Below are positions 11,494 through 59,503 of a stretch of DNA of 64,000 nucleotides, one piece after another. The number at the start of each line of letters is the position of its first letter. Position 1 is the stretch's first letter. Below the pieces are notes generated by a model. It had not been told where the DNA came from and searched no databases. It worked only from the letters and a program-made list of their open reading frames with translations. This DNA comes from Rhizobium sp. BK251. GTDB taxonomy: Bacteria; Pseudomonadota; Alphaproteobacteria; Rhizobiales; Rhizobiaceae. Location of the stretch: positions 248,001-312,000 of the forward strand of contig NZ_SLUQ01000004.1 in NCBI RefSeq assembly GCF_004345245.1, read 5' to 3'. The position numbers and the translations under genes were made by a program.

Positions 11494-11515
11494 GCCGCTT
11501 TCCGAGTAGCCTGTA

Positions 11516-30921: not shown

Positions 30922-30942
30922 TATATCCTCCAGCATGGGCAA

Positions 30943-32610
<1,668 letters not shown>

Positions 32611-32620
32611 CTTGGTCACC

Positions 32621-33754: not shown

Positions 33755-33755
33755 A

Positions 33756-34763: not shown

Positions 34764-34827
34764 CGGACGGTTCGCTTCTCTTTGCCGCCAGTCGCGCCCG
34801 TTGGTGCGGCCGGCTTGTTGGTCTTGC

Positions 34828-34852
34828 CCGGCCGCGCTTCACGCGCGGCCGG
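34828..34852 (-). promoter_or_regulatory. Stem-loop between agpA and agpB
   Basis: CCGGCCGCGC (34828-34837) and GCGCGGCCGG (34843-34852) form a perfect 10-bp GC stem with a five-base loop in the 117-base gap after the binding-protein gene. No U run follows. Likely an mRNA-stabilising or partial-termination element that keeps agpA expression above that of the permeases. Confidence 0.6.
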
Positions 34853-34880
34853 AATGTCTCGTTTCACTGGGAGGGAACTC

Positions 34881-36968: not shown

Positions 36969-37087
36969 CGTCTCTCCCTCTTGCTTCGGGACGCCTTTCG
37001 GTTGCCCCGGTTCTCCTCAAACGGTCCGGTGACGGGCTGCGATGGGCTCCCTCCCGGAGCCTCAGCGCCACCCGTCCTCCCGGAAGA

Positions 37088-38554: not shown

Positions 38555-38612
38555 GACCTTCACCTCAATTCGATCAGATGCTAAAAAGAAGGCGGCAAGG
38601 GAGGAAAAGCCA

Positions 38613-38628
38613 ACATGCGCGTGCATGT
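38613..38628. promoter_or_regulatory. Inverted repeat in the agaL1-agpT divergent region
   Basis: ACATGC (38613-38618), four bases, GCATGT (38623-38628) form a 16-bp dyad within the 245-base gap between the divergent genes. Position suits a regulator site; the family here is AraC, which more often uses direct repeats, so assignment is uncertain. Confidence 0.35.
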
Positions 38629-43060: not shown

Positions 43061-43920
43061 TCTCCTCCAGGCAGCGCCGAGCGAGAAAGGCGTTCAGGGC
43101 CGCAACCGCCTATCACGGCACCGGCCTCATCATTGCGATTTTCTTCCTCGCGCCCTTCATCATCTCGCTCCTTGCCTCCTTCCGCCACGGTACGGAGGCA
43201 AGTCTTCCGCCGCTGCCACCATGGCCGACAAACGGGGTGAGCTTCGATGCCTATGCGCTGCTCGACACCTTCGGGGCCGGCATCTGGCAGCACATGGTCA
43301 ACTCGCTGGTCGTTTCCCTCGGGACGGTCGTGCTGACGGTCTCCGTCAGCCTGCTCGCCGGCTACGGTTTCTCGCGCTACCGTTTTCCGCTGAAGAACGT
43401 GCTGTTCGTGCTGATCATTGCCACCCTGATGATCCCGTTCCAATCGATCCTGACGCCGCTCTTCATCATCCTGGCAAAGCTCGGCCTCAACAACTCGCTG
43501 CTCGGCCTGACGCTGGTCTACGTGACGCTGCAGCTTCCCTTCTCGGTCTTCATGATGCGCAACGCTTTCGACGCAGTGCCCAAGGAGATCGAGGAAGCCG
43601 CCCGCATCGACGGGGCGCGCGACCTGAAACTGCTGGTGCGCGTGCTCCTGCCCCTGGTGCTGCCGGGTGTGGCGACGGTGGCGATCTTTGCCTTCCTCAA
43701 TGCCTGGAACGAGTTCCTTGCGGCCCTCGTGCTGCTCTCCAGCAATGAGAAATACACGCTGCCCGTCCTGATGACGGCGGTGCGCGCCGGTCGCCTCGGC
43801 GCCATCAACTGGGGTGCGGTCCAGGCGGGCGTCGTCGTCATGACGATCCCCTGCCTGATCGTCTTCCTGCTCCTGCAACGCTACTACATGCGCGGGCTGA
43901 TGGCCGGCGCAGTCAAATGA
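43057..43920 (+). CDS. Sugar ABC transporter permease (MalG/UgpE type)
   Basis: 287 residues; the ATG overlaps the previous stop. Spans include GLIIAIFFLAPFIISLLASF and VLFVLIIATLMIPFQSILTPLF; the EAA loop is IEEAARIDGARDLKLLVRVLLPLVLPGVATVAIFAF. Partner of the preceding permease. Confidence 0.93.
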   Translation: MISSRQRRARKAFRAATAYHGTGLIIAIFFLAPFIISLLASFRHGTEASLPPLPPWPTNGVSFDAYALLDTFGAGIWQHMVNSLVVSLGTVVLTVSVSLLAGYGFSRYRFPLKNVLFVLIIATLMIPFQSILTPLFIILAKLGLNNSLLGLTLVYVTLQLPFSVFMMRNAFDAVPKEIEEAARIDGARDLKLLVRVLLPLVLPGVATVAIFAFLNAWNEFLAALVLLSSNEKYTLPVLMTAVRAGRLGAINWGAVQAGVVVMTIPCLIVFLLLQRYYMRGLMAGAVK

Positions 43921-45872
43921 TCCCGAACGAAATGGATGAGACAATGAACCAGCTGAAAAGAGACCGCCAGTTCCGCCCCCTCCCCGTTCCGAGCGTCACG
44001 CTCGGCGGATTGTTCGGCGACCGGCAGGAAGCCATCTGCGATGCGACCGCCGAGATCCTGCTGGACCGCTGCGTCAAGGCCGGCATGCTGCAGGCCATCG
44101 ACACCAGCCAGCCAAGCCCGGGCATCGTCATTCCGATCCAGCCCTGGGGCGGCACCACGCAGATGTTCTGGGACAGCGATCTCGGCAAGTCGATCGAGAC
44201 CATCGCCTATTCGCTCTACAGGAAGCCCAACCCACACCTGGAGGCCCGCGTCGACGCCATCGTCGACATGTACGAAAAGATGCAGGACGAGGACGGCTAT
44301 CTGAACGCCTGGTTCCAGCGCGTCCAGCCCGACCGCCGCTGGACCAACCTGCGTGACCATCACGAACTCTATTGCGCCGGCCACCTGATCGAGGGAGCCG
44401 TCGCCTACTACCAGGCGACCGGCAAGCGCAAGCTGCTCGATGTCATGTGCCGGTACGTCGACTACATGATCAAGGTCTTCGGCCATGGCGAGGGGCAGAT
44501 GCCCGGCTATTGCGGCCACGAGGAAATCGAGCTGGCGCTAGTGAAGCTCGCGCGCGTGACGGGCGAGAAGAAATATCTAGACCTTTCGAAATTCTTCATC
44601 GACGAGCGCGGCACCGAGCCGCATTTCTTCACCGCGGAAGCGATCCGGGATGGCAGGGATGCCGCCGATTTCCACCAGAAGACCTATGAATACGGCCAGG
44701 CACATCAGCCGGTGCGCGAGCAGAAGAAGGTCGTCGGTCACGCGGTGCGTGCCATGTACCTCTATTCCGGCATGGCCGACATCGCCACGGAATACAACGA
44801 CGACAGCCTGACTGCTGCCCTTGAGACGCTTTGGGACGACCTGACGACGAAGCAGATGTACGTCACAGGCGGCATCGGACCTGCGGCCTCCAACGAAGGC
44901 TTTACCGACTACTACGATCTGCCGAACGAGAGTGCCTATGCCGAAACCTGCGCCTCGGTCGGCCTCGTCTTCTGGGCGAACCGCATGCTCGGCCGCGGCC
45001 CGAACCGGCGCTACGCCGACATTATGGAGCAGGCGCTTTACAATGGCGCAATGTCCGGGCTTTCCCTCGACGGAAAGACTTTCTTCTATGAGAACCCGCT
45101 CGAAAGCGCCGGCAAGCACCATCGCTGGATCTGGCACCATTGCCCCTGCTGCCCGCCGAACATCGCCCGCCTGCTGACTTCCGTCGGCTCCTACATGTAT
45201 GCGCTCGCCGCCGACGAGATCGCCGTCCATCTCTACGGCGAGAGCAAGGCCCGTTTCGAGATCGCCGGCGCAAAGGTCGAGCTTTCGCAGGAAACGCGCT
45301 ATCCCTGGGACGGCGCGGTTCGCTTTGCCGTCTCCCTCGACAGGCCGGCACGATTTGCCCTGTCGCTGCGAATCCCGGAATGGGCCGAGGGCGCCGGCAT
45401 AAAGGTCAACGGCGAAACGCTCGGTCTGGCGACGGTCACCGTCGACGGCTATGCCCGCATCCAGCGCGAATGGAAGAATGGCGACAGGGTCGAGCTCGAC
45501 ATTCCGCTGAGGCCGCGCGCGATCTGGGCGAACCCGTTGGTGCGCCAGGATGCGGGCCGCACGGCGCTGATGCGCGGGCCGCTGGTCTATTGTGTCGAGA
45601 CGACCGACAATGGCGAGGGCCTCAACGGCATCGCGCTTGCTTCCGACGTCTCCTCGGCCAAGCTGACTGAAGTTCCCGGGCTGCGCGGCGTGGTCGCACT
45701 CGACCTGCCGGCGACGCGCGACGAGCCCAACTGGGGTACGTCTCTCTACCGCACCTCTCCGCCAAGCAGGAAGAAAACGACGGCCCGCTTCGTGCCCTAT
45801 CCCTTCTGGGACAATCGCGAGCCCGGCGAAATGCTGGTATGGGTAAGGGCGGGCGAAGCGCGTGGGGAATGA
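43917..45872 (+). CDS. GH127 beta-L-arabinofuranosidase (DUF1680 family)
   Basis: 651 residues with no signal peptide, so cytosolic. An (alpha/alpha)6 catalytic region covers roughly residues 20-440. Metal/nucleophile residues of the GH127 family are present: Glu343-Thr-Cys345 in YAETCASVG, and Cys409, Cys411 and Cys412 in HCPCCPPN, corresponding to the Zn-bound Glu and Cys cluster with a Cys nucleophile described for Bifidobacterium HypBA1. A beta-rich C-terminus follows. It releases beta-L-arabinofuranose, for example from hydroxyproline-linked arabinosides of plant extensins. Start uncertain: ATG at 43917 overlaps the permease stop; ATG at 43932 or 43944 is also possible. Confidence 0.9.
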
Positions 45873-46976: not shown

Positions 46977-47084
46977 TCTAGAGCATTTCCGTCTTTCCCC
47001 GAATTACAGAAATGCTCTATCTCTTTGTTTTTACGCAATTCCGGACGCAAAACCGCTCCGCACTTTTGCTGGAATTGCTCTAGA
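46977..47084. repeat. RIME-like intergenic repeat
   Basis: A 108-bp palindromic-mosaic element. Its ends are TCTAGAGCATTTCC (left) and GGAATTGCTCTAGA (right), inverted repeats with one mismatch. The interior has CAGAAATGCTCTATCTCT, TTTACGCAATTCCGGACGCA and AAACCGCTCCGCACTTTTGC segments that I recognise from the RIME-type repeats abundant in Rhizobium and Sinorhizobium genomes. It fills the space between two convergent genes and overlaps the last codons of the GntR-type gene. Confidence 0.8.
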
Positions 47085-47850
47085 AGGAGAGGTCGAGCAC
47101 ACGGCCTTCGAAGAGGCGGTCTCGCGATCCTTCGAGGTGAGTCTGCATCAGGTCGCGGGCGTCTTCGGCTCGGCCGTCCGCAATCGCCTTGTAGATCGCG
47201 TTGTGTTCCTGGAACACCTGCTCAAGCCCCTGCCGCGGACCGAGGAGCGACAGCCCGTGCAGATGCATGCCGACGGCGATGTGCGCCTTCAGCGCGTCGA
47301 TCGACGCGGTATAGTAGTGGTTGTTGGCCGCTTCCGTGACCGAGCGGTGGAAAATGAAATCGGCGTCCGCACGGTGGAGTTGGTGGCTGGTCGCCTCCCG
47401 CAGGTCCGCCAGTGCCGACGCAATCTTCTGGATCGCCGCATCGTCGCGCCGCTTGGCCGCGAAAAAGGCCGCAGCCGGCTCGATTGTCAGGCGGAATTCG
47501 TAGCAGCGCTGGATATCGGCGATCGTCTTGACCGGCGAATAGGCAAGCTGCGTCGTCGGCGAACCGTGAGCGCTGACGAAGGTGCCGGCGCCCTGTCGTG
47601 CGTAGACGATACCCTGCTCCCGCAGCCGCGCCAGCGCATCGCGCACGATGGGACGCGAGACACCAAGCAGGGAAGCGAGCTCATGCTCGCCGGGAAGGCG
47701 TGAGTCCGGCGGATAATTGCCGGCCCGGATGCGTTCCATCAACTGGTTGAAGACGCGATCCACCAGCTTGGTGGCCTTGCCGCGCTCGGGCCGAGGCGTC
47801 TGGGCCGCGTCGCCATTCGCAGGTGCGCCATTTGCTTCATCCACGCTCAT
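47080..47850 (-). CDS. GntR-family regulator, FadR subfamily
   Basis: 256 residues: winged HTH (LVDRVFNQLMERIRAGNYPPDSRLPGEHELASLLGVSRPIVRDALARLREQGIVYARQGAGTFV) plus an all-helical FCD domain (FRLTIEPAAAFFAAKRRDD, then DADFIFHRSVTEAANNHYY and EHNAIYKAIADGRAEDARDLMQTHLEGSRDRL) with the Asp/His residues that bind metal and an organic acid. The start MSVDEANG has AGGAGA just upstream. Last gene of the leftward operon, and probably its sugar-acid-responsive repressor. Its TAG stop lies inside the RIME-like repeat. Confidence 0.92.
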   Translation of the reverse strand: MSVDEANGAPANGDAAQTPRPERGKATKLVDRVFNQLMERIRAGNYPPDSRLPGEHELASLLGVSRPIVRDALARLREQGIVYARQGAGTFVSAHGSPTTQLAYSPVKTIADIQRCYEFRLTIEPAAAFFAAKRRDDAAIQKIASALADLREATSHQLHRADADFIFHRSVTEAANNHYYTASIDALKAHIAVGMHLHGLSLLGPRQGLEQVFQEHNAIYKAIADGRAEDARDLMQTHLEGSRDRLFEGRVLDLSF

Positions 47851-47869
47851 TCTCCTCGCCGGCATCTGT

Positions 47870-48931
47870 TTATGCCGCCTGATTCCGCGGAATCAGTTTT
47901 AGCAAACTATTGGAATTGCCGAAGCCCCCGGACTTGACTGCGCACCGGAATTGCCGGCCGTCGGGGTCTGCAACATCGAACCAGGGAACTCCGGCCTCGA
48001 TTTCGCCCTTTGGCATCAGCACCCTGACGCCCAGTTCGCGAAAGATGGCGAGCGCAGTATCACCCCCGCCGACCATGATCATATCAGGTCTTGTCTCGTC
48101 TATGACTAATTTAACGCCCGTTGCAAAGCGGGTCGCCACGATGGCCGCATCGCTCGACACCTCCCCAGTGCAGCGGAGGAGCATCGGCAGCACGGCGCGA
48201 CTGTCGCGACCGACGCCACCCATCGGCGCATCCACGACCCTGGCGAGGGCACCGGACGCTTCGAGCTGCTCCATCTGCTGGGCGGTGATCGGGTCGCGGG
48301 AGCCGAAGGCAAACAGCGTCTTCGGCTCCGGGCGAAATGCCTGCCCCCGTCCAGCAACCTTGCCGAGGCGCCGGGCGAGGGCAGCGCCGAGACCGCGCGC
48401 GCCGACGGCGAGGACCCGACGCCAGTCGTTGCGCGCGGCAATACGATTGAGATCCGCGTCGTCCTCAGCATCGGCAACCGTTACTGTCTGAGAGCAACCG
48501 GAAAAAAGGTCTGCAACAGGGATCGGCGTTTCGACGCCGCGACCGACGACGCAGCCGCGATAGGTGATCCGCTCCTGATCGGGGATGGCCGGGGCGACGA
48601 GGATGCCCGTCATCCCGAGCATCTCCGCAAGTGCGATGCTTTCGGCGGCGACATTTCCCTTCAGGCGAGAGTCGATCTTCTTCATGACGATCGAAGGCAA
48701 CGCGGGAAGCAACGCCCGTGCAGCTTTGCGCACGACCTCTCCTGCCTCGTTCTCGCCGAGAGCGCGTGACGCCGTGTTGATAACGACCACGTCCGCCCTG
48801 GTCCTCACCGCCTCCTCCGCTGCATTCACATCAACGGCAACGGCCACCGAAAGGCCGGCTTCGACAAAGGGCGTGCCCGTGTCGAGCGCTCCGGTGAGAT
48901 CATCGGCGATGATGGCAGCCTTCAGCGTCAT
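47870..48931 (-). CDS. Four-carbon acid-sugar kinase family protein (DUF1537)
   Basis: 353 residues. The N-terminal domain begins AAIIADDLTGALDTGTPFVEAGL, and VMKKIDSRLKGNVAAES holds the conserved Lys/Asp/Arg motif. The C-terminal nucleotide-binding domain includes VGGGDTALAIFRELGVR and CAVKSGGFGNSNSL. Relatives (DtnK, OtnK) phosphorylate D-threonate, D-erythronate or 2-oxo-tetronate at O4 with ATP. The start ATG overlaps the stop of the ABC ATPase upstream (ATGA), tying it to transport. A PdxA2-like gene in the divergent operon would take the next step. Confidence 0.9.
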   Translation of the reverse strand: MTLKAAIIADDLTGALDTGTPFVEAGLSVAVAVDVNAAEEAVRTRADVVVINTASRALGENEAGEVVRKAARALLPALPSIVMKKIDSRLKGNVAAESIALAEMLGMTGILVAPAIPDQERITYRGCVVGRGVETPIPVADLFSGCSQTVTVADAEDDADLNRIAARNDWRRVLAVGARGLGAALARRLGKVAGRGQAFRPEPKTLFAFGSRDPITAQQMEQLEASGALARVVDAPMGGVGRDSRAVLPMLLRCTGEVSSDAAIVATRFATGVKLVIDETRPDMIMVGGGDTALAIFRELGVRVLMPKGEIEAGVPWFDVADPDGRQFRCAVKSGGFGNSNSLLKLIPRNQAA

Positions 48932-49920
48932 GCATCCTGCCCCGGATTGACCGCATGGCAGGCAACGAGATGGCCTGGCTTTGCTTCCTTCCATTCGGGC
49001 ACGACCTTGCCGCAGACCTCCATGGCGATCGGGCAGCGCGTGTGAAAACGGCAGCCGCTCGGCGGGTTGAGCGGGCTCGGCACGTCGCCCTGCAGGATCT
49101 GGCGCTGGCGGCCGCGCTCGTGCTCGGGATCGGTCTCCGGCACGGCGGAAAGAAGCGCCTTCGTATAGGGATGCAGCGGGTTCTCGAAGAGCTCGTCGCG
49201 TGTCGCAAGCTCCGCCAGGCGACCGAGATACATCACGCCGACGCGCGTGCTTATGTGGCGGACAACCGCCAGGTCATGGGCGATGAAGAGATAGGTCAGC
49301 CCGTATTTCTCCTGCAGGTCGAGCAGGAGATTGATGATCTGTGCCTGGATCGATACGTCGAGCGCAGAGATCGCCTCGTCGCAGACGATGAATTTCGGCT
49401 GGCACGCAAGGGCACGAGCGATGACGACACGCTGCCGCTGGCCACCCGAAAGCTCGTGCGGGTAGCGCTGCGCAAAGCGCGGCGGCAGGCCGACATCCGT
49501 CAGCAACGCACCAATCTTGTTCTTTATCTCAGCCTTGGTCGCAAGCTTGTGGAAGAGGATCGGCTCGGCGATCGCCTCGCCGATCGTCATGCGCGGATTG
49601 AGCGTGGAGTAGGGATCCTGGAAGACGATCTGCAGGTCGCGGCGGAAGGGCCGCATCTGCTTTTCGTTGAGCACGGCCAGATCCTGGCCCTTGTAGACGA
49701 CCCGGCCGCTCGTTGCCCGATGAAGGTTGAGGATCGTGAAGCCGGTCGTCGACTTGCCGCAGCCGGATTCACCGACGAGGCTGAGAGTCTCGCCCTCCAT
49801 GATGTCGAGGTCGACATTGTCGAGTGCATAGACCGTCGCCGCGCGGTCGCCGAAGGCGCCGAGCTTGACGTGGAAGTGCTTGACCAGGTTTTCGACCTTG
49901 AGAAGCGGTTCAGCACCCAT
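48928..49920 (-). CDS. Oligopeptide/glycoside ABC transporter ATPase (DppF/OppF type)
   Basis: 330 residues. Walker [13 protein letters not shown], signature [15 protein letters not shown], Walker [20 protein letters not shown], and the C-terminal Cys-containing oligopeptide-ABC domain ([27 protein letters not shown]) that can hold an Fe-S cluster. I prefer ATG at 49920; GTG one codon earlier overlaps the preceding stop. Pairs with the DppD-type ATPase. Confidence 0.94.
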
Positions 49921-50924
49921 CACGCGGCCTCCTGTACTTTCTGGACGACGAAGCAGGCGGCGCGATGGCCACCTGCGCCGGCAAGCGGTTCGAGCTTCGG
50001 CACCCGCTCATGACAGACCGCTTCGACAAGGGGGCAGCGCGGCGCGAAGGGGCAACCCTTCGGACGGCGACCCGGCTCCGGCGGTGTCCCGCCGATCGAG
50101 GAGAGCCTGCTCGTAGGCGCATCCGAAAGCTTCGGGATCGAGGCAAGCAGGCCGCGGGTATAGGGATGGCTCGGCCGCGCATAGAGCTCGTCGACCGGCG
50201 CGTCCTCGACGACCGTGCCGGCATAAAGGACGGCAACCCGATCGACGAGGCCCGCGATCAGCGCAAGGTCATGGGTGATCCAGACGACCGACATGCCGAG
50301 CCTCGCGCGGAGGTCCTTCACGAGATCGACGATCTGCGCCTGGATCGTGACGTCGAGCGCGGTGGTCGGTTCGTCGGCGATCAGGAGCTTCGGATCGCAG
50401 GCAAGGCCGATCGCTATCATAACGCGCTGGCGCATGCCGCCCGAAAGCTCGTGCGGATAGGCCATCAGCCGTTCTTCCGGCCCGGGAATGCCGACGAGGC
50501 GAAGAAGGTCGATTGCCCGGACGCGGGCATCCGCCTTCGACATCTTGCGGTGATAGATCAGCGGCTCGCAGATCTGGTCGCCAACGCGCATGACCGGGTT
50601 CAGCGAGGTCATCGGATCCTGGAAGACGAAGCCGATGTCGCCGCCGCGCACCTTGCGCAGGTCCGAATTGGACATCCTCTGCAGGTCGCGACCATCGAAA
50701 TTTGCGGTCCCCTTGGTCACCTTGATCTTGTTCGGAAGAAGCCGCATGAGGCTCAGCATCGTCAGGCTCTTGCCGCAGCCGGATTCGCCGACGACGCCCA
50801 GCGTCTCGCCCTTGTTGACGTAGAGGTCGATTCCGTCGACCACGACTGCCGGGCCATTGCGGCCGTCGATCTCGACCGTGAGGTCGCGGACGTCCAGCAG
50901 GCGTTCGTTCGTCTTGGAGTTCAT
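49920..50924 (-). CDS. Oligopeptide/glycoside ABC transporter ATPase (DppD/OppD type)
   Basis: 334 residues. Walker [14 protein letters not shown], signature LSGGMRQRVMIAI, Walker B LLIADEPTTALDVTIQAQI, C-terminal GRRPKGCPFAPRCPLVEAVCHERVP. Start at the ATG immediately inside the TGATG overlap with the DppC-type gene; GTG three bases earlier is possible. Heterodimer partner of the DppF-type protein. Confidence 0.94.
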   Translation of the reverse strand: MNSKTNERLLDVRDLTVEIDGRNGPAVVVDGIDLYVNKGETLGVVGESGCGKSLTMLSLMRLLPNKIKVTKGTANFDGRDLQRMSNSDLRKVRGGDIGFVFQDPMTSLNPVMRVGDQICEPLIYHRKMSKADARVRAIDLLRLVGIPGPEERLMAYPHELSGGMRQRVMIAIGLACDPKLLIADEPTTALDVTIQAQIVDLVKDLRARLGMSVVWITHDLALIAGLVDRVAVLYAGTVVEDAPVDELYARPSHPYTRGLLASIPKLSDAPTSRLSSIGGTPPEPGRRPKGCPFAPRCPLVEAVCHERVPKLEPLAGAGGHRAACFVVQKVQEAA

Positions 50925-51883
50925 CACTTGCTCCCCCGCGGGTTGAGTGCATCATTGAGACCGTCGCCGAGGAAGCTGAAGGCAACCGAGGCAAGGCCCA
51001 GCACCGCCGCCGGAGCGGCAAGGAGATGCGGATAGTGCTGCCAGACGCGCAGACCATCCGAGATCATGTTGCCCCAGCTGGGCGTGGGCGGATTGACGCC
51101 GACGCCAAGGAAGCTGAAGGCGCTTTCAAGGACCATGGCAGTGCCGAGACCGGCGCTGACAGAAACGATGAGCGGCCCGAGCGCATTCGGCACGATATAG
51201 CGCTTGATGATGATCCAGTTCGAAAGACCGAGCGCCTGCGCCGCCGTGATGTAGGGGCGGTTGCGGATGGACAGCACCTGGGCACGCACGAGCCGGGCAT
51301 AGGGCGGCCACGAGATCAGCGCCATGGAACCGAAGACAAGCAGGAAATCCACCCAGATCGTCTGGCGGTAGAAGGGATTGAGCGTCTCGAGATAGCGCGC
51401 CTCCATCCACCTCGTGATCGGCGTCTTCAGCGAAGCATTGATGACGACGACGAGAAGCAGGTTCGGAACCGACATCGTGACATCGGTGAGCCACATGATG
51501 GCGCGGTCGAAGGGATTACCGAAGAAGCCGGCGATCGCGCCGAGCGTAAGCCCGATCAGGACCGCGATGAAGGTGACGATCACCGCGACGAGAAAGGCCG
51601 TGCGCGTGCCAAAGACGACGCGGCTGAAGACATCGCGCCCGAGATCGTCCGTGCCGAACAGATGCGCGAGCGAAGGCGACGCGTTCCGGGCGGCAAGATC
51701 CTGGCTGAGGTAGTCCTGCGGCGTCAGGTAGGGTCCGAAGATCGCGGCGAAGGCGAGGATCAGCACGACGATGAGGCCGAAGATTGCAAGCTTGTTGCGC
51801 TTCAGGCGATACCAGGCATCGCGCCAGAGGCTGACCGGCGGCTCCTCGGCATTGTCGATAATCGAGAGAGGAATGGCGGACAT
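50924..51883 (-). CDS. Oligopeptide/glycoside ABC transporter permease (DppC type)
   Basis: 319 residues: N-terminal cytosolic stretch and first span (LAIFGLIVVLILAFAAIFGPYL), LFGTDDLGRDVFSRVVFGTRTAFLVAV, and EAA loop YITAAQALGLSNWIIIKRYIVPNALGPLIV. The ATG at 51883 has AAGGAG upstream; a TTG two codons earlier is less likely. Confidence 0.93.
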   Translation of the reverse strand: MSAIPLSIIDNAEEPPVSLWRDAWYRLKRNKLAIFGLIVVLILAFAAIFGPYLTPQDYLSQDLAARNASPSLAHLFGTDDLGRDVFSRVVFGTRTAFLVAVIVTFIAVLIGLTLGAIAGFFGNPFDRAIMWLTDVTMSVPNLLLVVVINASLKTPITRWMEARYLETLNPFYRQTIWVDFLLVFGSMALISWPPYARLVRAQVLSIRNRPYITAAQALGLSNWIIIKRYIVPNALGPLIVSVSAGLGTAMVLESAFSFLGVGVNPPTPSWGNMISDGLRVWQHYPHLLAAPAAVLGLASVAFSFLGDGLNDALNPRGSK

Positions 51884-51885
51884 GG

Positions 51886-52842
51886 TCAACGGCTCCTTCT
51901 TGCGTCGTTGGCACGCGGATCAAGCATCGGGTAAAGCACGTCGACGAGAAGGTTCGACAGCATCACCAGGAAGGATCCGATGAGTGTGATCGCCAGGATG
52001 ACGGGATAGTCCGAATTTGTGAGCGCCTGCACTGTCAGGCGGCCAAGGCCGGGAAGGCCGAACACGAGCTCCACAAAGATCGCGCCGTTGACGATGGTGA
52101 TCATGATGAGGCCGAGCTGGGTCACGATCGGCGTCAGCACCGGACGCAGGATATGCCGGAGCGCGACGATGACTTCCGGCACACCCTTGGCGCGAGCCGT
52201 CCGCACGAAATCCTCTGACAGCACCTCTATGACGGCGGCGCGCGTCTGGCGCACGATGAGCGCTATCGGCTGAAAGGAAAGCACGATCAGCGGCAGCAGG
52301 ATCCGCACGTCGAAGACGCCGCCCCAACCGTAGGGCACCTTGATCATCGGCAGGAGCACGATGAGGGCCACCATGAGCAGCGGACCTGCGACATAGGCCG
52401 GGATCGCCCAGAGGAAAAGGGCCGAGCCGAGGATCGTGTAGTCGATACGCGAATTCTGGTTCATTGCCGCGATCATGCCGAGCGGAATCGCGATGACCGC
52501 GGTCAGCACGATGGAACAGAGCGCCAGCTGGAAAGAAACCGGGGCGGCGGCCGAAACCATCGACCAGACCGAGCGACCCGATGTCAGCGAATTGCCGAAC
52601 TGGCCATGCAGCAGGTTCCAGATATAGACGCCGAACTGCTCGATGAACGGCTTGTTGAGGCCCGCGCTCTCGCGGATCGCCTCGATGCGCTGCGGATTGT
52701 AGGCGACATCGCCGGGCGCCCGCAGGAAGATCAGCTTGATCGGATCACCGGCGCCATAGAAGGCCATCGCATAGACCGCCATCATGACGACCAGGACCGA
52801 CGGAATCCAGATGGCAAACCGCGTTAGCACGTAGCGAAGCAA
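51886..52842 (-). CDS. Oligopeptide/glycoside ABC transporter permease (DppB type)
   Basis: 318 residues starting MLRYVLTRFAIWIPSVLVVMMAVY if the TTG at 52842 is used; GGGAGG lies five bases before it. A GTG two codons upstream is also open but its ribosome-binding site would abut it. Six spans and the EAA loop FVRTARAKGVPEVIVALRHILRPVLTPIV are present. It follows the binding-protein gene after a 145-base gap containing two stem-loops. Confidence 0.9.
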   Translation of the reverse strand: MLRYVLTRFAIWIPSVLVVMMAVYAMAFYGAGDPIKLIFLRAPGDVAYNPQRIEAIRESAGLNKPFIEQFGVYIWNLLHGQFGNSLTSGRSVWSMVSAAAPVSFQLALCSIVLTAVIAIPLGMIAAMNQNSRIDYTILGSALFLWAIPAYVAGPLLMVALIVLLPMIKVPYGWGGVFDVRILLPLIVLSFQPIALIVRQTRAAVIEVLSEDFVRTARAKGVPEVIVALRHILRPVLTPIVTQLGLIMITIVNGAIFVELVFGLPGLGRLTVQALTNSDYPVILAITLIGSFLVMLSNLLVDVLYPMLDPRANDARRSR

Positions 52843-52917
52843 GGCCACCTCCCACCTGTTCTTCGGCGCGACCCGTGAGCGTACCCGCGGGCTGCACCTA
52901 CTTCACTCTTGAAGCTT

Positions 52918-52979
52918 GCGCGAAGGCCTTGAGGTCTTCGCGCGGTTTTCATGAAGGGAGCCGCGATGGGATCCCTTCA
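52918..52979 (-). promoter_or_regulatory. Two stem-loops between binding-protein and permease genes
   Basis: GCGCGAAG/CTTCGCGC (52918-52925 with 52936-52943) and TGAAGGGA/TCCCTTCA (52952-52959 with 52972-52979) are perfect 8-bp stems in tandem just beyond the binding-protein stop. They parallel the elements at 34828 and 42085 and probably shape differential expression in the operon. Confidence 0.6.
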
Positions 52980-52987
52980 CGTCCTCC

Positions 52988-54628
52988 TCAACCGATGGAA
53001 ACGTCCCAGGGCGTCACGACCTGCCAGTCGAGGTTCTTCTCCATGCCCTTGACGTCCTTCGTCGCCCAGCGCGACATGGCCTGAGAATACCATGGAATGA
53101 AGGCCCAATCCTCGCGGAACGCCTTCTGCGCTTCCTGGGCAAGCTTGGCGCGCTGCGGATCGTCCGCCGCCTTGGTTGCGGCTTCAGCAAGCAGGCTGTC
53201 GACCTTGTCGTTCTTGTAGCCGCCGAGCTTGTTCTGGGCGTTGGAAGAGGTCGAGGCGATGGAGCCGGCAAGATAGGACACGGCATCGGGAACGCGCGTG
53301 CCGACGTCGTCGCGGAAGATCTGGACCGAATTCTGGTCCGGACCTGCATAGGCGTCCTGCTGGGGCTTCATGTCCACCGCCGTGATGCCGAGGTTCTGGC
53401 GCCATTGCTCGGCGATGAACTGCGCCGCGGCCTGGATCGCCGGCGCCGAGACACCGACGAACATGATCTTCGGCAGGCGCTCCGGACCGCCATAGCTCGA
53501 TTCCGCGAGAAGCTTCTTCGCGCCTTCCGGATCGTAGGGATAGGGCACAAAGCCGGAATCGTCCGCTCCGGGCACGGAGTTGAGGATCTGGTCGGCCTTC
53601 TTGTGCGGCCCGTCCGGATAGGAGGCCTTGAAGAGGCCGTCGCGGTCGACGGCCATGATCAATGCCTGGCGCACCTTCGGATCGTCCATCGGCGCGCGCG
53701 TGATGTTGAACCAGAAATGCTGGCTGGTCGGAATGATCGGCCCTTCCGAAAACTCTGGACCGAGATCCTGGATGATCGTCGAGGTTACAAGTTCGGTGTG
53801 GGCATTATACTCGCCCGACTTGATGAGCTGCGTCGCGGTGACGTTGTCCTCGACCGAGGTGATCTCGATGCGGGCGAGCTTCGGCTTCGGTCCGAAGAAG
53901 TTCTCGTTGGGCTCGAAGGTCAGCGTGCCTGCGTCGATATCGAGGGCAGTGAGCTTGAACGGGCCGGAATAGACGGCACCGCTATCGGGCGTGTACCAGT
54001 CTGCAATCTCCTCGCCATCGCTCCCGCGGGACTGCGACGCCTTGGTGATCGGGATGATGTGGTTGGCAAGCCGCATGAAGAAGATCGGGTCCGCGTCGGT
54101 CAGCGTGCAGACGACCGTGCCCTCGTCCGGCGTCGTGACACCTGTCAGCTCGTTGCCCGAGCCGGAGGCGATCTCCTTGAAGCCTTGCACGTGGCTCAAC
54201 ACCTGGTCGGCGCGCTGGCTCTTGGAATTCGGCATCGAAGCGACTTCCCAGGAACCCTTCACGTCTGCTGCGGTGATCTTGCTGCCGTCGGAGAAGACCG
54301 CCTTCGGGTCGATCTTGAAGGTCCAGACCTTGTTGTCTGGCGATTCCCAGCTCGTGAAGACATAGGGCTGGATCTTGCCGGCGGCGTCGAAATACATCGG
54401 CGACGCCCACCAGAACGAATTCCAGCGGAAGGTTCTGCCGCCGCCGCGCAGCGGCGACCAATCCTGGTCAAATGCAGGGTTGATGGCTTTCAGGACCTGA
54501 CCGTCCTGCGCCATGACGATGCGTGCGTTCAGGCCGAAAAGGGTGATGCCGACGCCGGCGGCGAGCCCGAGCTTCAGGGCATCGCGTCGCGACATCTGCG
54601 AAATGGTATCGTCATTGCGAATTGTCAT
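52988..54628 (-). CDS. ABC transporter substrate-binding protein, family 5, Tat-type signal
   Basis: 546 residues. GGAGGAG precedes ATG at 54628. The N-terminus has a twin-arginine motif (QMSRRDALKLGLAAGVGITLFGL), implying export in folded form. The mature protein is an SBP_bac_5 receptor (NPAFDQDWSPLRGGGRTFRWNSFWWASPMYFDAAGKIQPYVFTSWESPDNKVWTFKI, later MDDPKVRQALIMAVDRDGLFKASYPDG). Family 5 includes peptide and many oligosaccharide receptors; the sugar-acid genes around it argue against a peptide ligand. First gene of the leftward operon. Confidence 0.92.
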   Translation of the reverse strand: MTIRNDDTISQMSRRDALKLGLAAGVGITLFGLNARIVMAQDGQVLKAINPAFDQDWSPLRGGGRTFRWNSFWWASPMYFDAAGKIQPYVFTSWESPDNKVWTFKIDPKAVFSDGSKITAADVKGSWEVASMPNSKSQRADQVLSHVQGFKEIASGSGNELTGVTTPDEGTVVCTLTDADPIFFMRLANHIIPITKASQSRGSDGEEIADWYTPDSGAVYSGPFKLTALDIDAGTLTFEPNENFFGPKPKLARIEITSVEDNVTATQLIKSGEYNAHTELVTSTIIQDLGPEFSEGPIIPTSQHFWFNITRAPMDDPKVRQALIMAVDRDGLFKASYPDGPHKKADQILNSVPGADDSGFVPYPYDPEGAKKLLAESSYGGPERLPKIMFVGVSAPAIQAAAQFIAEQWRQNLGITAVDMKPQQDAYAGPDQNSVQIFRDDVGTRVPDAVSYLAGSIASTSSNAQNKLGGYKNDKVDSLLAEAATKAADDPQRAKLAQEAQKAFREDWAFIPWYSQAMSRWATKDVKGMEKNLDWQVVTPWDVSIG

Positions 54629-54709
54629 TTTCTCCTCCGTAGCAAGCAGTGCGCCGCTCGAAAGACCCTCCCCGAGGAGACGCATCATGATCTGGAGAGT
54701 TGCGCGATA

Positions 54710-54724
54710 TTGTAAATCTGTCAA
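54710..54724 (-). promoter_or_regulatory. Operator-like motif and -35 of the leftward operon
   Basis: TTGTAAATCTGTCAA on the plus strand; the reverse strand therefore has TTGACA at its 5' end, a consensus -35 for the binding-protein operon starting about 82 bases away. The motif shares 12 of 15 positions with the reverse complement of the core of the rightward motif. Confidence 0.55.
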
Positions 54725-54810: not shown

Positions 54811-54855
54811 GGCCAAAGTTGTAAGATTGACAACTTGGCCTTATTGCGGTGAATA
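54811..54855 (+). promoter_or_regulatory. Operator and promoter of the rightward operon
   Basis: AAGTTGT (54816-54822), seven bases, ACAACTT (54830-54836) is a perfect dyad extended by GGCC on both sides (54811-54814 and 54837-54840). A consensus -35 TTGACA (54827-54832) lies in its right half; 17 bases later is TGAATA (54850-54855) as a weak -10. A repressor bound here would block RNA polymerase. Confidence 0.6.
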
Positions 54856-54904: not shown

Positions 54905-55810
54905 TTGAGCAAGCACCGGATTACAGGCGTTTTCAGCGCCGCCACCACCCCTCTCAATGCCGACGGCAGCCCCGATCTCGGACTTTTCACCGAACATTGC
55001 CATCGCCTCATCACGGAAGGATGTCACGGCGTAGCACTTTTGGGGACGACCGGAGAGGCGAACTCCTTCTCCAGCGCCGAGCGCCGTGCGATGCTTGAGG
55101 CCGCATTGAAGGCGGGCGTTCCGGCCGACAAGCTCCTGCCGGGCACCGGCGTTGCGGCCATTCCTGAAACCGTGGAGCTGACGCGGCACGCGCTGTCGCT
55201 CGGCGTGACGAAAGTGGTCATGCTGCCGCCCTTCTACTACAAGGGCGTTTCCGACGAAGGTCTTTTTGCCTCCTACGCCCAGATCTTCGAGAAGCTCGGC
55301 GACAACCGCCTGCAGGTCATCCTCTATCATATCCCACAGGTCTCCGGCGTTCCGCTGTCGATCCCGCTGATCAGCCGATTGATAAAGGCATTTCCCGAGA
55401 CTGTCGTTGGCATCAAGGAATCTGCCGGCGATTTCAATAACATGCAGGCGATCATCGCCGAGTGTCCGGGATTCTCGGTCCTCTGCGGCGCCGATCCGCT
55501 GCTGCTGCCGCTCCTGAAGGCCGGCGGCGCGGGCTGCATCACCGCCACGTCGAACCTTGTCGCCGACTCCTTGCGCACGGTCTACGACCACGTCCATGAC
55601 GAGAGCCATGCCGCCGCCGTCGAGACAGCCCAGGCGCGCATCACCGCCTATCGCACGCTGTCGAACTCCTATGTGCAGATCCCGACGATCAAGGCCATGG
55701 TCGGCCTGAAGACGGGCAATCCCGTCTGGAAGCGCACGCGGCCGCCATTGATGCCGATCAGCGACACCGAATATGCCGCCCTTGCCGAAGGCTACGCAAA
55801 ACTGCAGTGA
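54905..55810 (+). CDS. DapA-family lyase/dehydratase (dihydrodipicolinate synthase/NAL superfamily)
   Basis: 301 residues from a TTG start with AGGAGG five bases upstream; no in-frame ATG fits. The TIM barrel has GTTGEAN (48-53 region), Tyr141 in LYHIPQVSG and the Schiff-base Lys171 in VVGIKESAGD, so catalysis through a pyruvate-type imine is expected. True DapA is usually elsewhere with lysine genes; here the neighbours are sugar-acid dehydrogenases. It could split a 2-keto-3-deoxy acid to pyruvate plus aldehyde, or dehydrate one. Sialate lyase is possible but nanK/nanE are absent. Confidence 0.9.
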   Translation: MSKHRITGVFSAATTPLNADGSPDLGLFTEHCHRLITEGCHGVALLGTTGEANSFSSAERRAMLEAALKAGVPADKLLPGTGVAAIPETVELTRHALSLGVTKVVMLPPFYYKGVSDEGLFASYAQIFEKLGDNRLQVILYHIPQVSGVPLSIPLISRLIKAFPETVVGIKESAGDFNNMQAIIAECPGFSVLCGADPLLLPLLKAGGAGCITATSNLVADSLRTVYDHVHDESHAAAVETAQARITAYRTLSNSYVQIPTIKAMVGLKTGNPVWKRTRPPLMPISDTEYAALAEGYAKLQ

Positions 55811-55821
55811 AGGAGGGCGTC

Positions 55822-57006
55822 ATGAATTTTACAGGTTTGTCGCCAGAAGCCGTTCCGGCCCGAATGACGGGCATGCTCGAGGCCAATGATGCACAGCCCG
55901 GCCGCCGGGACGCCTACCTGCCCTCTCCCTGCATACAGAACCATGCGGCAAACCTCGCTTTCCTGCCGGATGGCACGCTGACCTGTGTCTGGTTTGGCGG
56001 CACGATGGAGGGGATGGGCGACATCTCAATTTACATGTCGCGGCTTCGCCAGGGTTCCGATCGCTGGTCCAAGCCCGAGAAGATGTCCGACGATCAGGCC
56101 AAGTCCGAGCAAAACCCGTTGATTTTCAACGCGCCGGACGGGCGCGTGTGGCTGCTCTACACCTCGCAGACCTCCGGCGACCAGGACGGCGCGATTGTCA
56201 AATGTCGTATCTCCGAGGATGGCGGCGAGACATTCGGCCCAACTCGGGTCCTTTGCGACCTGCCCGGAACCTTTGTGCGCCAGCCGATCGTGGTCAATGG
56301 TAAGGGTCACTGGCTCTTGCCGACGTTCCGCTGTGTGAGCCTGCCGGGCCAGCGGTGGAGCGGAGATGCCGATACGGCCGGCGTCCTGATCTCCGGCGAC
56401 CAGGGCAGGACGTGGCAGATGCGTGACGTGCCGGGCAGTCTCGGCGCCGTGCACATGAACATCCTGAAGTCCGACAACGGCAACATGGTTGCCTTCTTCC
56501 GCAATCGCTATTCGGAGAATGTCCTGTCGTCTTCATCGACAGACGATGGCCAAAGCTGGAGCGCGCCGGAACCCGTCAATCTGCCGAACAACAACTCCTC
56601 GATCCAGGCGACGATGCTTGAAGATCGAAGAATTGCAATGGTTTACAATCACAGCAATGTAGCGACCTCCGACGCGCGGCGCCTGTCCCTCTACGACGAA
56701 ATTGAGGATGGCAAGGCCCCCGAGCCGGCAGTCATGCAGCCTGTCGGGCGCAAGGCCGTCTGGGGAGTGCCGCGCGCGCCGCTCAGCCTTGCAGTTTCGA
56801 GCGATGGCGGCAAGACCTTCGGGCGGCGCATCGATCTGGACACCGGCGACGGCTACTGCCTCAGCAACAACTCGAAAGACATGGTCAATCGGGAATTCTC
56901 CTATCCGACAATCATCGAAGGTCCGGATGGAGCATTGCACATCGCCTATACCTACTATCGCCGGGCGATCAAATACGTGCGTTTGCCAGCAAAATCAGCC
57001 GCTTGA
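55822..57006 (+). CDS. Sialidase-like beta-propeller protein (BNR_2 family), cytosolic
   Basis: 394 residues, no signal peptide. At least four Asp-box-like repeats: SEDGGETFG, SGDQGRTWQ, STDDGQSWS and SSDGGKTFG. Other sialidase-like pieces are FLPDGTLTCVWFGGTMEG, FVRQPIVVNGKGHWLLPTF and REFSYPTIIEGPDGALHIAYTYYRR. The ATG at 55822 follows AGGAGG. It lies 11 bases after the DapA-family gene, so they share a transcript. True sialidases are normally secreted, so this may be a hydrolase or lyase acting on an imported acidic glycoside. Catalytic arginines cannot be assigned with confidence. Confidence 0.8.
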   Translation: MNFTGLSPEAVPARMTGMLEANDAQPGRRDAYLPSPCIQNHAANLAFLPDGTLTCVWFGGTMEGMGDISIYMSRLRQGSDRWSKPEKMSDDQAKSEQNPLIFNAPDGRVWLLYTSQTSGDQDGAIVKCRISEDGGETFGPTRVLCDLPGTFVRQPIVVNGKGHWLLPTFRCVSLPGQRWSGDADTAGVLISGDQGRTWQMRDVPGSLGAVHMNILKSDNGNMVAFFRNRYSENVLSSSSTDDGQSWSAPEPVNLPNNNSSIQATMLEDRRIAMVYNHSNVATSDARRLSLYDEIEDGKAPEPAVMQPVGRKAVWGVPRAPLSLAVSSDGGKTFGRRIDLDTGDGYCLSNNSKDMVNREFSYPTIIEGPDGALHIAYTYYRRAIKYVRLPAKSAA

Positions 57007-57333: not shown

Positions 57334-58467
57334 ATGGTCAGTTTGGATTCGCCTATCACGATCGTCCGGCCGCAGCTGATTGAATTCGGAGTGGGTACCG
57401 CCGGCCGGCTGGGCAAATGGGCGACTGACAAGGGATGTCGCCGCACACTGGTGATCTCCGATGCCTTCAACGCTTCCCGCATCGATGTGCTCGAGCTTCG
57501 CGGCGAGGTTTCGGTCTTTTCCGAAGTCACGCCCGAACCCGATATCGGTAATCTCGACCGCGTGCTCGCCGCAGCGGAGGCAGTCAATGCGGATCTTATT
57601 GTCGGCTTCGGCGGCGGCAGCGCCATGGATCTTGCCAAGCTTGCTGCCGTTCTCGCCGGCTCCTCCCAGACGCTGCATGAGGTCGTCGGACCGAACAAGG
57701 TCCGCGGACCCCGCAAGGTAGCCCTTGCCCAGGTGCCGACGACGTCAGGCACGGGCAGCGAGGCCGGCATTCGCGCCCTCATTACCGATCCTTCGACGAT
57801 GGCAAAGCTCGCGGTTGAAAGCCCGCTGATGCTCGCCGACATCGCCGTGGTCGATCCGGTACTCACATTCACGGTTCCCGCGCGAACGACCGCGGCGACC
57901 GGCGTCGATGCCATGGCCCACTGTGTCGAGGCGTTCACCAATCGCAAGGCGCATCCGATGATCGACATCTATGCGATCGAGGGCACGCGGCTCGTCGGAA
58001 AGTATCTTGCCCGTGCCGTCAGGAACGGATCCGATGCCGAAGCGCGTGCTGGCCTCTCGCTTGCTTCCCTCTATGGCGGCTTCTGCCTCGGTCCCGTCAA
58101 CACAGCCGGCGGCCACGCACTTGCCTATCCGCTTGGAACGCGCTGGCACGTGGCGCATGGCGCGGCCAACGCGCTTATCTTCCCGCATGTTCTGGCCTTC
58201 AACACCCCGTCCGTGCCGGAAAAGACACAGGCGATCATGGAAGCTCTCGGCTATCCTGCCTCGGAGAACATCAAGTCCGTCTTCGATGCCGCCTACGCTT
58301 TCTGCGCCGATCTCGGTATCGAGATGAAGCTCTCCGGCCTTGGCGTGCCTGAGAGCGATCTGGATGCGATGGCAGACGATGCCTTTGCCATCCGCCGGCT
58401 GCTTGACAACAATCCGCGCGACCTGTCGCGCGATGATATCCGTTCGATCTACGAGGCAGCGTTCTAA
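57334..58467 (+). CDS. Iron-type (group III) alcohol dehydrogenase
   Basis: 377 residues. NAD(P) site [14 protein letters not shown], conserved [10 protein letters not shown], and metal ligands Asp192/His196 ([12 protein letters not shown]), His261 ([10 protein letters not shown]) and His275 (HVAHGAANA). GGGAGG lies eight bases before the ATG. It would interconvert an aldehyde or hydroxy acid with its alcohol/keto form. Maleylacetate reductase and hydroxyacid-oxoacid transhydrogenase belong to the same superfamily, so the substrate is open. Confidence 0.92.
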
Positions 58468-58498: not shown

Positions 58499-59503
58499 AT
58501 GCAGAGCAATGCGAAAGTGGCGGTGACGCTGGGCGACCCGGCCGGCGTCGGCCCGGAGGTGATCGTCAAGGCGCTGGCGGCGATGCCGGCGCAGGAACGG
58601 CGTGATTTCGTCATCGTCGGCAATACCGAAGCCCTGGAGCGCGCGGGTCGCGCGACCGGCATCGACCTGCGCTTCGCGCCCTCGGCTTCCGATGACGGAC
58701 TCACCATTGCCGTCGACGAGGTGCCGCTTGGCGCGCCGCTACCGGAAATCGGCAAGGTCAGTCCGATCGCGGGCGACGCCTCGGTGAAATACATCTCCCG
58801 TGCCGTCGATCTTGCCATGACCGGCAAGGCGGACGTCATCGTCACCGCGCCGATCAACAAGGAGGCCATGAACCTCGCCGGCCATCATTTCGATGGCCAT
58901 ACGGGCCTGCTCGCGCATCTGACGGGCTCCAAAAGCTCCTTCATGCTGCTTGCCTCCGAGCGCCTGAACACCATCCACGTCTCGACGCATGTGTCGCTGA
59001 GGGGCGCAATCGAGCGGGCAAAGACCGAGCGCGTGCTCGCCACCATCGAGGCCGGGCACAACCACTTCATGCGTCTCGGCAAGAAGGCGCGCATCGCCGT
59101 CGCCGGGCTCAACCCGCATTGCGGCGAGAACGGGCTTTTCGGCACCGAGGACATGGAATTTCTCGCGCCCGCCGTCGAGCAGGCAAGAGCCAGGGGCATC
59201 GATGTCGTTGGCCCCATCTCGGCCGATACGGTCTTTGCGCGGGCCTATAACGGCGCCTTCGATCTCGTGATCGCCCAGTATCACGACCAGGGCCATATCC
59301 CGATCAAGCTCGTCGCCTTCGAAACCGCCGTCAACGTCTCGCTCGGCCTGCCGATCGATCGCGTCTCGGTCGACCATGGCACGGCCTTCGACATCGCCGG
59401 CACCGGAAAGGCGAACCACGTCAACATGCTTTCGGCGATCGCCTATGCACGGCTGATGGCGAAGTCGCCGAGGCAACAGGCGAAAGCACCCGAGCTCTCT
59501 TGA
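58499..59503 (+). CDS. PdxA2-like 4-phospho-four-carbon-acid dehydrogenase
   Basis: 334 residues of the PdxA family. Metal ligands His164 (STHVSL), His207 (NPHCGE) and His262 ([10 protein letters not shown]) match those of E. coli PdxA. AGGAG precedes the ATG at 58499. A pyridoxine role is less likely in this context; PdxA2 proteins paired with DUF1537 kinases oxidise and decarboxylate D-threonate or D-erythronate 4-phosphate to dihydroxyacetone phosphate. The DUF1537 kinase lies in the opposite operon. Confidence 0.9.

Follow-up and report, generated by a model that had tools for sequence, protein, structure and literature searches.

A sialidase-like gene beside a divergent importer operon

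We analyzed a 64,000-nucleotide stretch of the Rhizobium sp. BK251 genome (hereafter the window) around a gene for a 394–amino acid sialidase-like protein (55822 to 57006, + strand). We predict this protein to be a cytosolic ketosidase with a sialidase fold that acts on glycosides of 3-deoxy-D-lyxo-2-heptulosarate (Dha), on the basis of its open reading frame (ORF), a Pfam domain, an AlphaFold2 model, fold matches, and residue counts among homologs. Translation of the stretch confirmed that the ORF is real; its mechanical call starts at a GTG at 55807. Residues 51 to 374 match Pfam BNR_2 (E = 1.1 × 10−64), and an NCBIfam scan of the protein found no model that attains its cut-off. Four canonical Asp boxes can be read in the translation (SEDGGETF at residues 131 to 138, SGDQGRTW at 191 to 198, STDDGQSW at 239 to 246, and SSDGGKTF at 326 to 333), and a fifth, degenerate box ends at W82. 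The most hydrophobic 15-residue stretch within the first 45 residues has a mean Kyte-Doolittle value of 0.38, versus 1.84 to 3.05 in four distant relatives. Thus, no signal peptide is apparent from the hydrophobicity of the N terminus, as a preliminary description of this DNA had stated, and the protein is predicted to be cytosolic. Among three N termini of remote homologs that we compared (L152, L154, and L157), each has a hydrophobic stretch. Many database records of sialidase-like homologs carry the name exo-alpha-sialidase.

Upstream of this gene and divergent from it (47080 to 54724, − strand) lie a regulator, a kinase, and an importer. The regulator (47080 to 47865) is of the FadR/GntR type, with Pfam GntR and FCD domains, and 92 of 104 related loci have one of this type. 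The NCBIfam model that best fits the regulator encoded here is NanR, at 102 bits and far below the cut-off of 260. The kinase (47870 to 48931) belongs to the DUF1537 family of four-carbon acid kinases (Pfam PF07005/PF17042) and is a predicted D-threonate kinase. Its ORF extends to 48994, homologs begin near 48931, and its best NCBIfam match, D-threonate kinase, scores 135 of the 450 bits needed. Pfam and NCBIfam identify the components of an Opp-type ABC importer as OppF-like (48928 to 49923) and OppD-like (49920 to 50927) ATPases and OppC-like (50924 to 51889) and OppB-like (51886 to 52848) permeases, followed by a family 5 solute-binding protein (52988 to 54724; Pfam SBP_bac_5, E = 1.6 × 10−60) that occurs in 93 of the 104 related loci.

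Three further enzymes are encoded on the + strand. Immediately before the sialidase-like gene is an aldolase of the DHDPS/NanA superfamily (54905 to 55810; Pfam DHDPS, E = 1.4 × 10−47), a predicted Dha aldolase whose ORF is called from 54785 with a likely TTG start at 54905. It retains the GTTGE, Tyr, and Lys motifs and falls short of the NCBIfam equivalog model for NanA (86 of 382 bits). Downstream is an Fe-containing alcohol dehydrogenase (Fe-ADH; 57334 to 58467; Pfam ADH_Fe_C/Fe-ADH), a predicted tartrate-semialdehyde (threuronate) reductase that scores 203 of 500 bits against the 4-hydroxybutyrate dehydrogenase model. We infer that succinate semialdehyde, the substrate of 4-hydroxybutyrate dehydrogenase, stands here as the deoxy analog of tartrate semialdehyde. 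The last enzyme (58499 to 59503, with an ATG at 58499; Pfam PdxA, E = 5 × 10−97) is a PdxA-type dehydrogenase and a predicted D-threonate 4-phosphate dehydrogenase; it stays below the cut-off of the model of that name (309 of 583 bits) and passes the generic pdxA model (342 of 290 bits).

In the flanking window ORFs covered by our Pfam scans, no homologs of nanK, nanE, or nagA/B were found. The preliminary description had accordingly placed the gene in a cluster without sialic acid genes. Given the adjoining NanA-superfamily aldolase and a GntR regulator whose nearest model is NanR, this holds for the specific genes and not for the general plan of the cluster.

The divergent promoter region contains an inverted repeat, AGTTGT-N7-ACAACT (54817 to 54835), that we regard as a candidate operator and that shares its right half with part of a TTGACA-like −35 element. 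Close Rhizobium relatives retain the repeat with an altered spacer. Scanning for FadR-type operator boxes gave inconsistent results. A later tally of TTGT-N3-7-ACAA showed that it occurs in 66 of 86 divergent regions, mostly from close relatives, versus 2.7% of random stretches (one of the 20 regions without it, that of L094, was empty). The repeat could function as an operator or as a −35 box, and the GntR protein would control the genes.

Two other groups of genes in the window deserve mention. A GH127-family gene (43917 to 45872) has aceric acid hydrolase as its best NCBIfam match, below the cut-off (412 of 950 bits), and is followed by a MalK-type ATPase; in A. fabrum, about 10 kb separates a relative (L106:22871-24634) from the sialidase-like gene. 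Because these are the only two loci with such a gene close to the cluster, we did not count GH127 as evidence for the system. Further away is a second Opp-type ABC importer (30943 to 38626) with a GH4 gene (37088 to 38626) that scores above the cut-off of an NCBIfam alpha-galactosidase subfamily model; a further ORF of GH4 type occupies 29551 to 30942.

A GH33-like fold with an altered active site

The AlphaFold2 model of the sialidase-like protein, built from 42 sequences, has a mean pLDDT of 83 and a pTM of 0.86, with residues 280 to 308 poorly defined. Its top Foldseek match is the GH33 sialidase 1wcq (E = 4.2 × 10−16, TM 0.69), and VIA-align superposes it on the Micromonospora viridifaciens sialidase 2ber with Z = 34.5 over 310 residues (rmsd 2.5 Å). 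Nearly all the matches listed for the model by Foldseek and VIA are GH33 sialidases. The model thus points to a sialidase-type beta-propeller with Asp boxes. Together with the BNR_2 match and the four canonical boxes, it bears out the earlier recognition of a sialidase-family propeller with at least four such motifs. The GH143-related PDB entry 5mqr was a weak profile match (E = 0.043 with the A2 profile and 1.7 × 10−5 with the broad A3 profile) that spans only about 65 residues and is weaker than most GH33 chains. No model named GH143 is among the library models matched by the protein, and no GH143 chain is among the 50 VIA matches listed, which we do not count as a negative.

We compared active-site residues among 99 clade members (98 distinct) and 13 remote homologs (23 to 31% identity), using as GH33 template the GH33 domain of L191, which matches the PDB sialidases 1kit and 1eur, and the GH33-like protein L192. 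N-terminal alignments to this two-sequence template were unstable; we report all four global profile alignments (the strongest with probability 99 and E = 1 × 10−17), which were run along with local ones. The catalytic Glu column of GH33 falls on His211 in all four, as well as in MAFFT and in a separate HMMER alignment. All 99 clade members have His here; the remote homologs have Gln (12 of 13) or His (1 of 13). Arg3 of the arginine triad corresponds to Arg318 in four of four global alignments and Arg2 to Arg227 in three, with an offset of one column in the fourth. The Arg1 column falls on His41 in two global runs and on Leu33 in the other two and in MAFFT, so no Arg occupies this position in any of these alignments. 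The Tyr nucleophile column falls on Tyr361 in three of four global runs; the fourth selects Tyr345 instead, a position that varies within the clade (Tyr in 61 of 99). In none of the four global alignments is the acid/base Asp of GH33 more than two residues away from Glu63.

His41, Glu63, Asp67, His211, Arg227, Arg318, and Tyr361 are invariant among the 99 clade members, and Glu63, Asp67, Arg227, Arg318, and Tyr361 are kept in all 13 remote homologs as well (His41 in 12 of 13). An insertion near residues 280 to 316 contributes Arg286, Arg287, Tyr291, Asp292, and Trp314, each present in 99 of 99 clade members; all 13 remote homologs have gaps at the first four of these positions, and 12 have one at 314. 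Remote homologs L152 to L162 have Gln at position 211, and the catabolic gene set described below was found with none of them.

The arginine triad and the Tyr/Glu pair, to which the preliminary description had pointed as the residues to look for, are therefore incomplete: Tyr361, Arg227, and Arg318 are kept, there is no Arg1, and His211 replaces the Glu of the nucleophile pair. By sequence, we regard this as a sialidase-superfamily protein that lacks the full GH33 catalytic set. The retained Tyr361 and two arginines lead us to expect a ketoside with a C1 carboxylate as the ligand; because two GH33 catalytic positions have changed, hydrolysis is not certain. That the protein is an ordinary cytosolic GH33 sialidase working on imported sialosides is very improbable. 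The nearest solved fold and the name carried by many database records would suit such an enzyme, and this is outweighed by the incomplete catalytic set, the absence of NanK and NanE among the cluster ORFs scanned, and downstream enzymes that are unfit for ManNAc.

A conserved set of four partner enzymes

We examined 104 clade loci whose sialidase-like proteins are homologs with at least 43% identity. Eighty of these are the best 80 of 134 from one contig scan; all 80 are Rhizobiaceae or "Rhizobiales" isolates and at least one record is duplicated (L025 = L036), so the counts that follow are not counts of independent events. Flanks were mostly 10 kb per side and up to 14 kb (20 kb in total for some genomes, and more in the window). 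By homology at E ≤ 10−15 within the fetched flanks, the DHDPS-family aldolase is present in 102 of 104 loci, the Fe-ADH in 103, the PdxA-type enzyme in 103, and the kinase in 97. All four occur together in 96 of 104 loci, mostly from Rhizobiaceae, and at the same threshold this set was found in none of the 13 remote-homolog loci.

Eight loci are exceptions. L039 and L208 end at a contig edge and L210 at the limit of the fetched region; truncated surroundings probably explain their missing genes. In L146 (genome G168), only a symporter, the sialidase-like gene, and a short-chain dehydrogenase (SDR) are together, and the aldolase, kinase, PdxA, and Fe-ADH genes are adjacent on another contig. 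The Pantoea type (L108, L142, and L150) has no intact kinase in its flanks. In genome G235, a kinase fragment (L150:5595-5846) adjoins PdxA, and an intact kinase is encoded on another contig (L218:9065-10336), which scores as a D-threonate kinase at 655 of 450 bits. In Cupriavidus sp. KK10 (L138:7524-9848), the DUF1537 kinase and PdxA are fused in one 775–amino acid protein.

The association can also be seen from the side of the partners. An Fe-ADH ortholog of at least 56% identity is present in 8 of 61 family genomes, and the sialidase-like gene lies beside it in all eight. The window genome (6.69 Mb) has two DUF1537, three PdxA, and five DHDPS matches, of which one DUF1537 and one PdxA are in the cluster; with so few copies, we take their meeting there not to be chance. 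The enzyme genes are annotated in R. johnstonii 3841 (on pRL9), A. fabrum pAt, M. nodulans, and Roseicitreum, with differing gene orders and importers. On S. meliloti pSymB, the Fe-ADH stretch is unannotated and present as two overlapping ORFs, and the Pantoea stretch is without the kinase. In S. meliloti ml56 (L109:12150-13067), Fe-ADH homology is split over two overlapping unannotated ORFs, a possible frameshift. In a plasmid search that includes remote homologs, 264 of 309 matching records were from Rhizobium, Sinorhizobium, Pantoea, Agrobacterium, Ensifer, and Neorhizobium.

Importers vary among Opp-type ABC systems, sodium symporters, and TRAP systems (adjoining the cluster in L151). The sodium symporter is found in 10 of 104 loci (L107, L108, L138, L139, L142, and L146 to L150). 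A small SDR of one type (E ≤ 10−15) occurs in exactly these 10 loci, and a different SDR-like ORF (11459 to 12205) lies beside the TRAP genes of L151. Neither the symporter nor the SDR that accompanies it has a step in the pathway proposed below. A YhcH-family protein is present in 6 of 104 loci, all enterobacterial. Neighbors that would suit rhamnogalacturonan-II (RG-II) are rare and could be there by chance: GH127 in two loci (the window and L106) and a galactarate-type gene set in two others (L098 and L209). The latter set (L209:13053-18822 and L098:16647-20647) lies within about 10 kb of the cluster and looks like one for oxidative galacturonate use: it encodes a 5-keto-4-deoxyglucarate dehydratase (KdgD, above its cut-off in L209), a member of the enolase superfamily, a lactonase-like protein, and a TRAP binding protein.

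The preliminary description had left room for a hydrolase or a lyase of new specificity working on an imported substrate; we favor the hydrolase. Sialidase-like folds host lyases too, so the protein might instead resemble a polysaccharide lyase, or be some other hydrolase of a uronic acid conjugate, with neighbors that belong to an unrelated C4 acid pathway. We consider this improbable, since the gene set persists despite differing gene orders and a choice of importers, and since the loci of the 13 remote homologs did not yield it.

Divergent partners around one predicted glycosidase

Sialidase-like proteins of the main groups are 43 to 55% identical to that of the window. Their partners have diverged further. 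The aldolase type shared by Rhizobium, Methylobacterium, and G145 has 20 to 30% identity to other cluster aldolases and 23 to 27% to E. coli NanA, DapA, and YagE, and is thus no nearer to the former than to the latter. The Fe-ADHs of alphaproteobacterial and enterobacterial loci are about 30% identical, and kinases are mostly 24 to 36% identical between groups. Judging from these sequences, the same four enzyme classes may have gathered around one glycosidase more than once. Separate recruitment of the aldolases is not a necessity because, in a tree with long branches, a single clade of all 13 cluster aldolases was not rejected (AU test, p-AU 0.14). This result slightly lowers the odds for both the best explanation and a new pathway.

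Chemistry points to D-threonate and, probably, Dha

The main clue, which the preliminary description missed, lies in the operon partners: together they suggest that a 2-keto-3-deoxy sugar acid is cleaved to pyruvate and a four-carbon semialdehyde, which is converted to D-threonate. Among enterobacterial loci, all three kinases tested pass the NCBIfam D-threonate kinase cut-off of 450 bits (506 in L139 from Klebsiella, and 613 and 615 in L147 and L148, which share its layout). All six PdxA proteins (from L139, L147, L148, L108, L142, and L150) exceed the D-threonate 4-phosphate dehydrogenase cut-off of 583, at 657 to 682 bits. The Burkholderiales-type (L149) and alphaproteobacterial kinases and PdxA proteins that we scanned fall far below these cut-offs. 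The D-threonate end of the pathway is therefore assigned by analogy in these groups, including the window, where the kinase and PdxA would have the same specificity. Zhang et al. reportedly described D-threonate catabolism by DtnK and PdxA2 in 2016. Within the DUF1537 family, DtnK is an established D-threonate kinase (PMC10971088).

If the Fe-ADH yields D-threonate, then the aldolase product is D-threuronate (tartrate semialdehyde), and adding back pyruvate gives a 3-deoxy-2-heptulosaric acid. We followed five 3-deoxy-2-ulosonates through cleavage and reduction in Fischer projection, with configurations taken from nomenclature. Dha alone gave a C4 acid, which is D-threonate; Kdo gave D-arabinose and DAH gave D-erythrose. 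On this bookkeeping, Kdo, DAH, KDG, and KDX were rejected as substrates. L-Threonate from ascorbate was also rejected, as the aldolase would have no place, and so was an ordinary nan pathway.

The aldol cleavage erases C4, so the C4 epimer of Dha fits equally, its D-xylo configuration also leading to D-threonate, and DHDPS-family aldolases are promiscuous. A ketosidase for another 3-deoxy-2-ulosonic or -ulosaric acid, such as this epimer, Kdo, or a bacterial nonulosonic acid, is accordingly conceivable, albeit unlikely: D-arabinose from Kdo and D-erythrose from DAH need no four-carbon acid kinase and PdxA, and neither NanK nor NanE was found among the cluster ORFs scanned.

The remaining question is what the sialidase-like protein does for this aldolase-to-D-threonate route. 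Sodium symporters carry monosaccharides more often than disaccharides, so a cytosolic glycosidase would be unexpected in the 10 symporter loci. Together with the occurrence of varied transporters alongside the same enzymes, the replacement of the GH33 Glu by His, and the lack of an Arg at Arg1, this could mean that the protein readies the free ulosaric acid for the aldolase, as a mutarotase, a lactonase, or an anhydro-sugar hydratase. We give this the largest share among the alternatives, about one chance in five. Against it, Tyr361 and the two carboxylate-binding arginines are present in 99 of 99 clade members and 13 of 13 remote homologs. A mutarotase would, moreover, be a second and redundant anomerase in the six loci with a YhcH-family "openase." YhcH is described as opening Neu5Ac for its aldolase (PMC8141875); by analogy, its relative in the six enterobacterial loci fits the Dha scheme.

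We therefore prefer a Dha ketosidase that opens a Dha catabolic pathway, with a probability of about 0.58. We infer the substrate, the hydrolysis, and the order of steps as follows. The glycoside would be taken up by the Opp-type ABC importer, and its ketosidic bond cleaved by the sialidase-like enzyme, whose two retained arginines would bind the C1 carboxylate for an attack of Tyr361 on C2. Open-chain Dha would then be split by the DHDPS-family aldolase into pyruvate and D-threuronate, which the Fe-ADH would convert to D-threonate. The DUF1537 kinase would form D-threonate 4-phosphate, and the PdxA-type enzyme would oxidize and decarboxylate it to dihydroxyacetone phosphate.

A rare, acidic sugar from plant cell walls, Dha is an orphan component of a polymer made by all vascular plants. 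A 2025 review describes it as known in plants only from RG-II and as related to sialic acid, tables its biosynthesis as unknown, and states that Dha standards are lacking (PMC12168206). In RG-II, a disaccharide side chain bears Dha and is capped by beta-1,5-arabinofuranose, although the source pairs chains and acids loosely (PMC12282258). Dha is also reported from prasinophyte algal scales and the Tetraselmis theca (PMC10762512), and an algal source would make sense for Roseicitreum, a carrier that comes from intertidal sediment. Three genes called dapA are reported to be up-regulated by Rhizobium phaseoli in maize exudate (PMC8581550), which we did not use as evidence. Among the literature matches listed, which are mostly open-access, there is no report of bacterial Dha breakdown to central metabolism.

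The odds are slightly better than even that plant-associated Proteobacteria have a complete new pathway of Dha catabolism with a new family of intracellular sialidase-superfamily glycosidases (His for the GH33 Glu, and no Arg1), perhaps assembled repeatedly from different aldolases around one glycosidase. Import and a ulosonate aldolase would be of a kind known from sialic acid; the substrate, the exit through D-threonate, and the altered glycosidase would be new. If this is true, then many genes of rhizobia, Pantoea, and others bear the name exo-alpha-sialidase wrongly, the cluster is a marker for the use of RG-II or algal scales, and the glycosidase and aldolase are tools to make and measure Dha.

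Comparison with known systems

The sialidase-like protein resembles GH33 sialidases such as that of M. viridifaciens (1eur/1wcq/2ber) in its propeller, Asp boxes, Tyr nucleophile position, and two carboxylate-binding arginines. It differs from them in lacking Arg1, in having His211 for Glu and, no more than two residues from the position of the acid Asp, Glu63, in its clade-specific insertion near residues 280 to 316, in having no apparent secretion signal, and in an identity of only about 20%. With the GH143 domain of Bacteroides BT1020 (PDB 5mqr), an RG-II Dha hydrolase, it shares the proposed substrate, and it matches 5mqr weakly (E = 1.7 × 10−5, broad profile); BT1020 is a large two-domain protein, unlike the 394–amino acid protein described here.

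At the level of the pathway, the closest relative is sialic acid catabolism (E. coli nanA-nanT-nanE-nanK-nanQ, L203), which likewise combines an importer, a DHDPS-superfamily aldolase, a GntR regulator (in most of our loci), and a YhcH/NanQ-family protein (in six). The proposed pathway differs in that the glycosidase would be intracellular and the aldolase product would pass to an Fe-ADH, a DUF1537 kinase, and PdxA instead of NanK and NanE. Its lower part is like D-threonate catabolism by DtnK and PdxA2, as the kinase and dehydrogenase of enterobacterial loci pass the same NCBIfam models; unlike in that system, D-threonate would here be an internal intermediate derived from a seven-carbon sugar acid.
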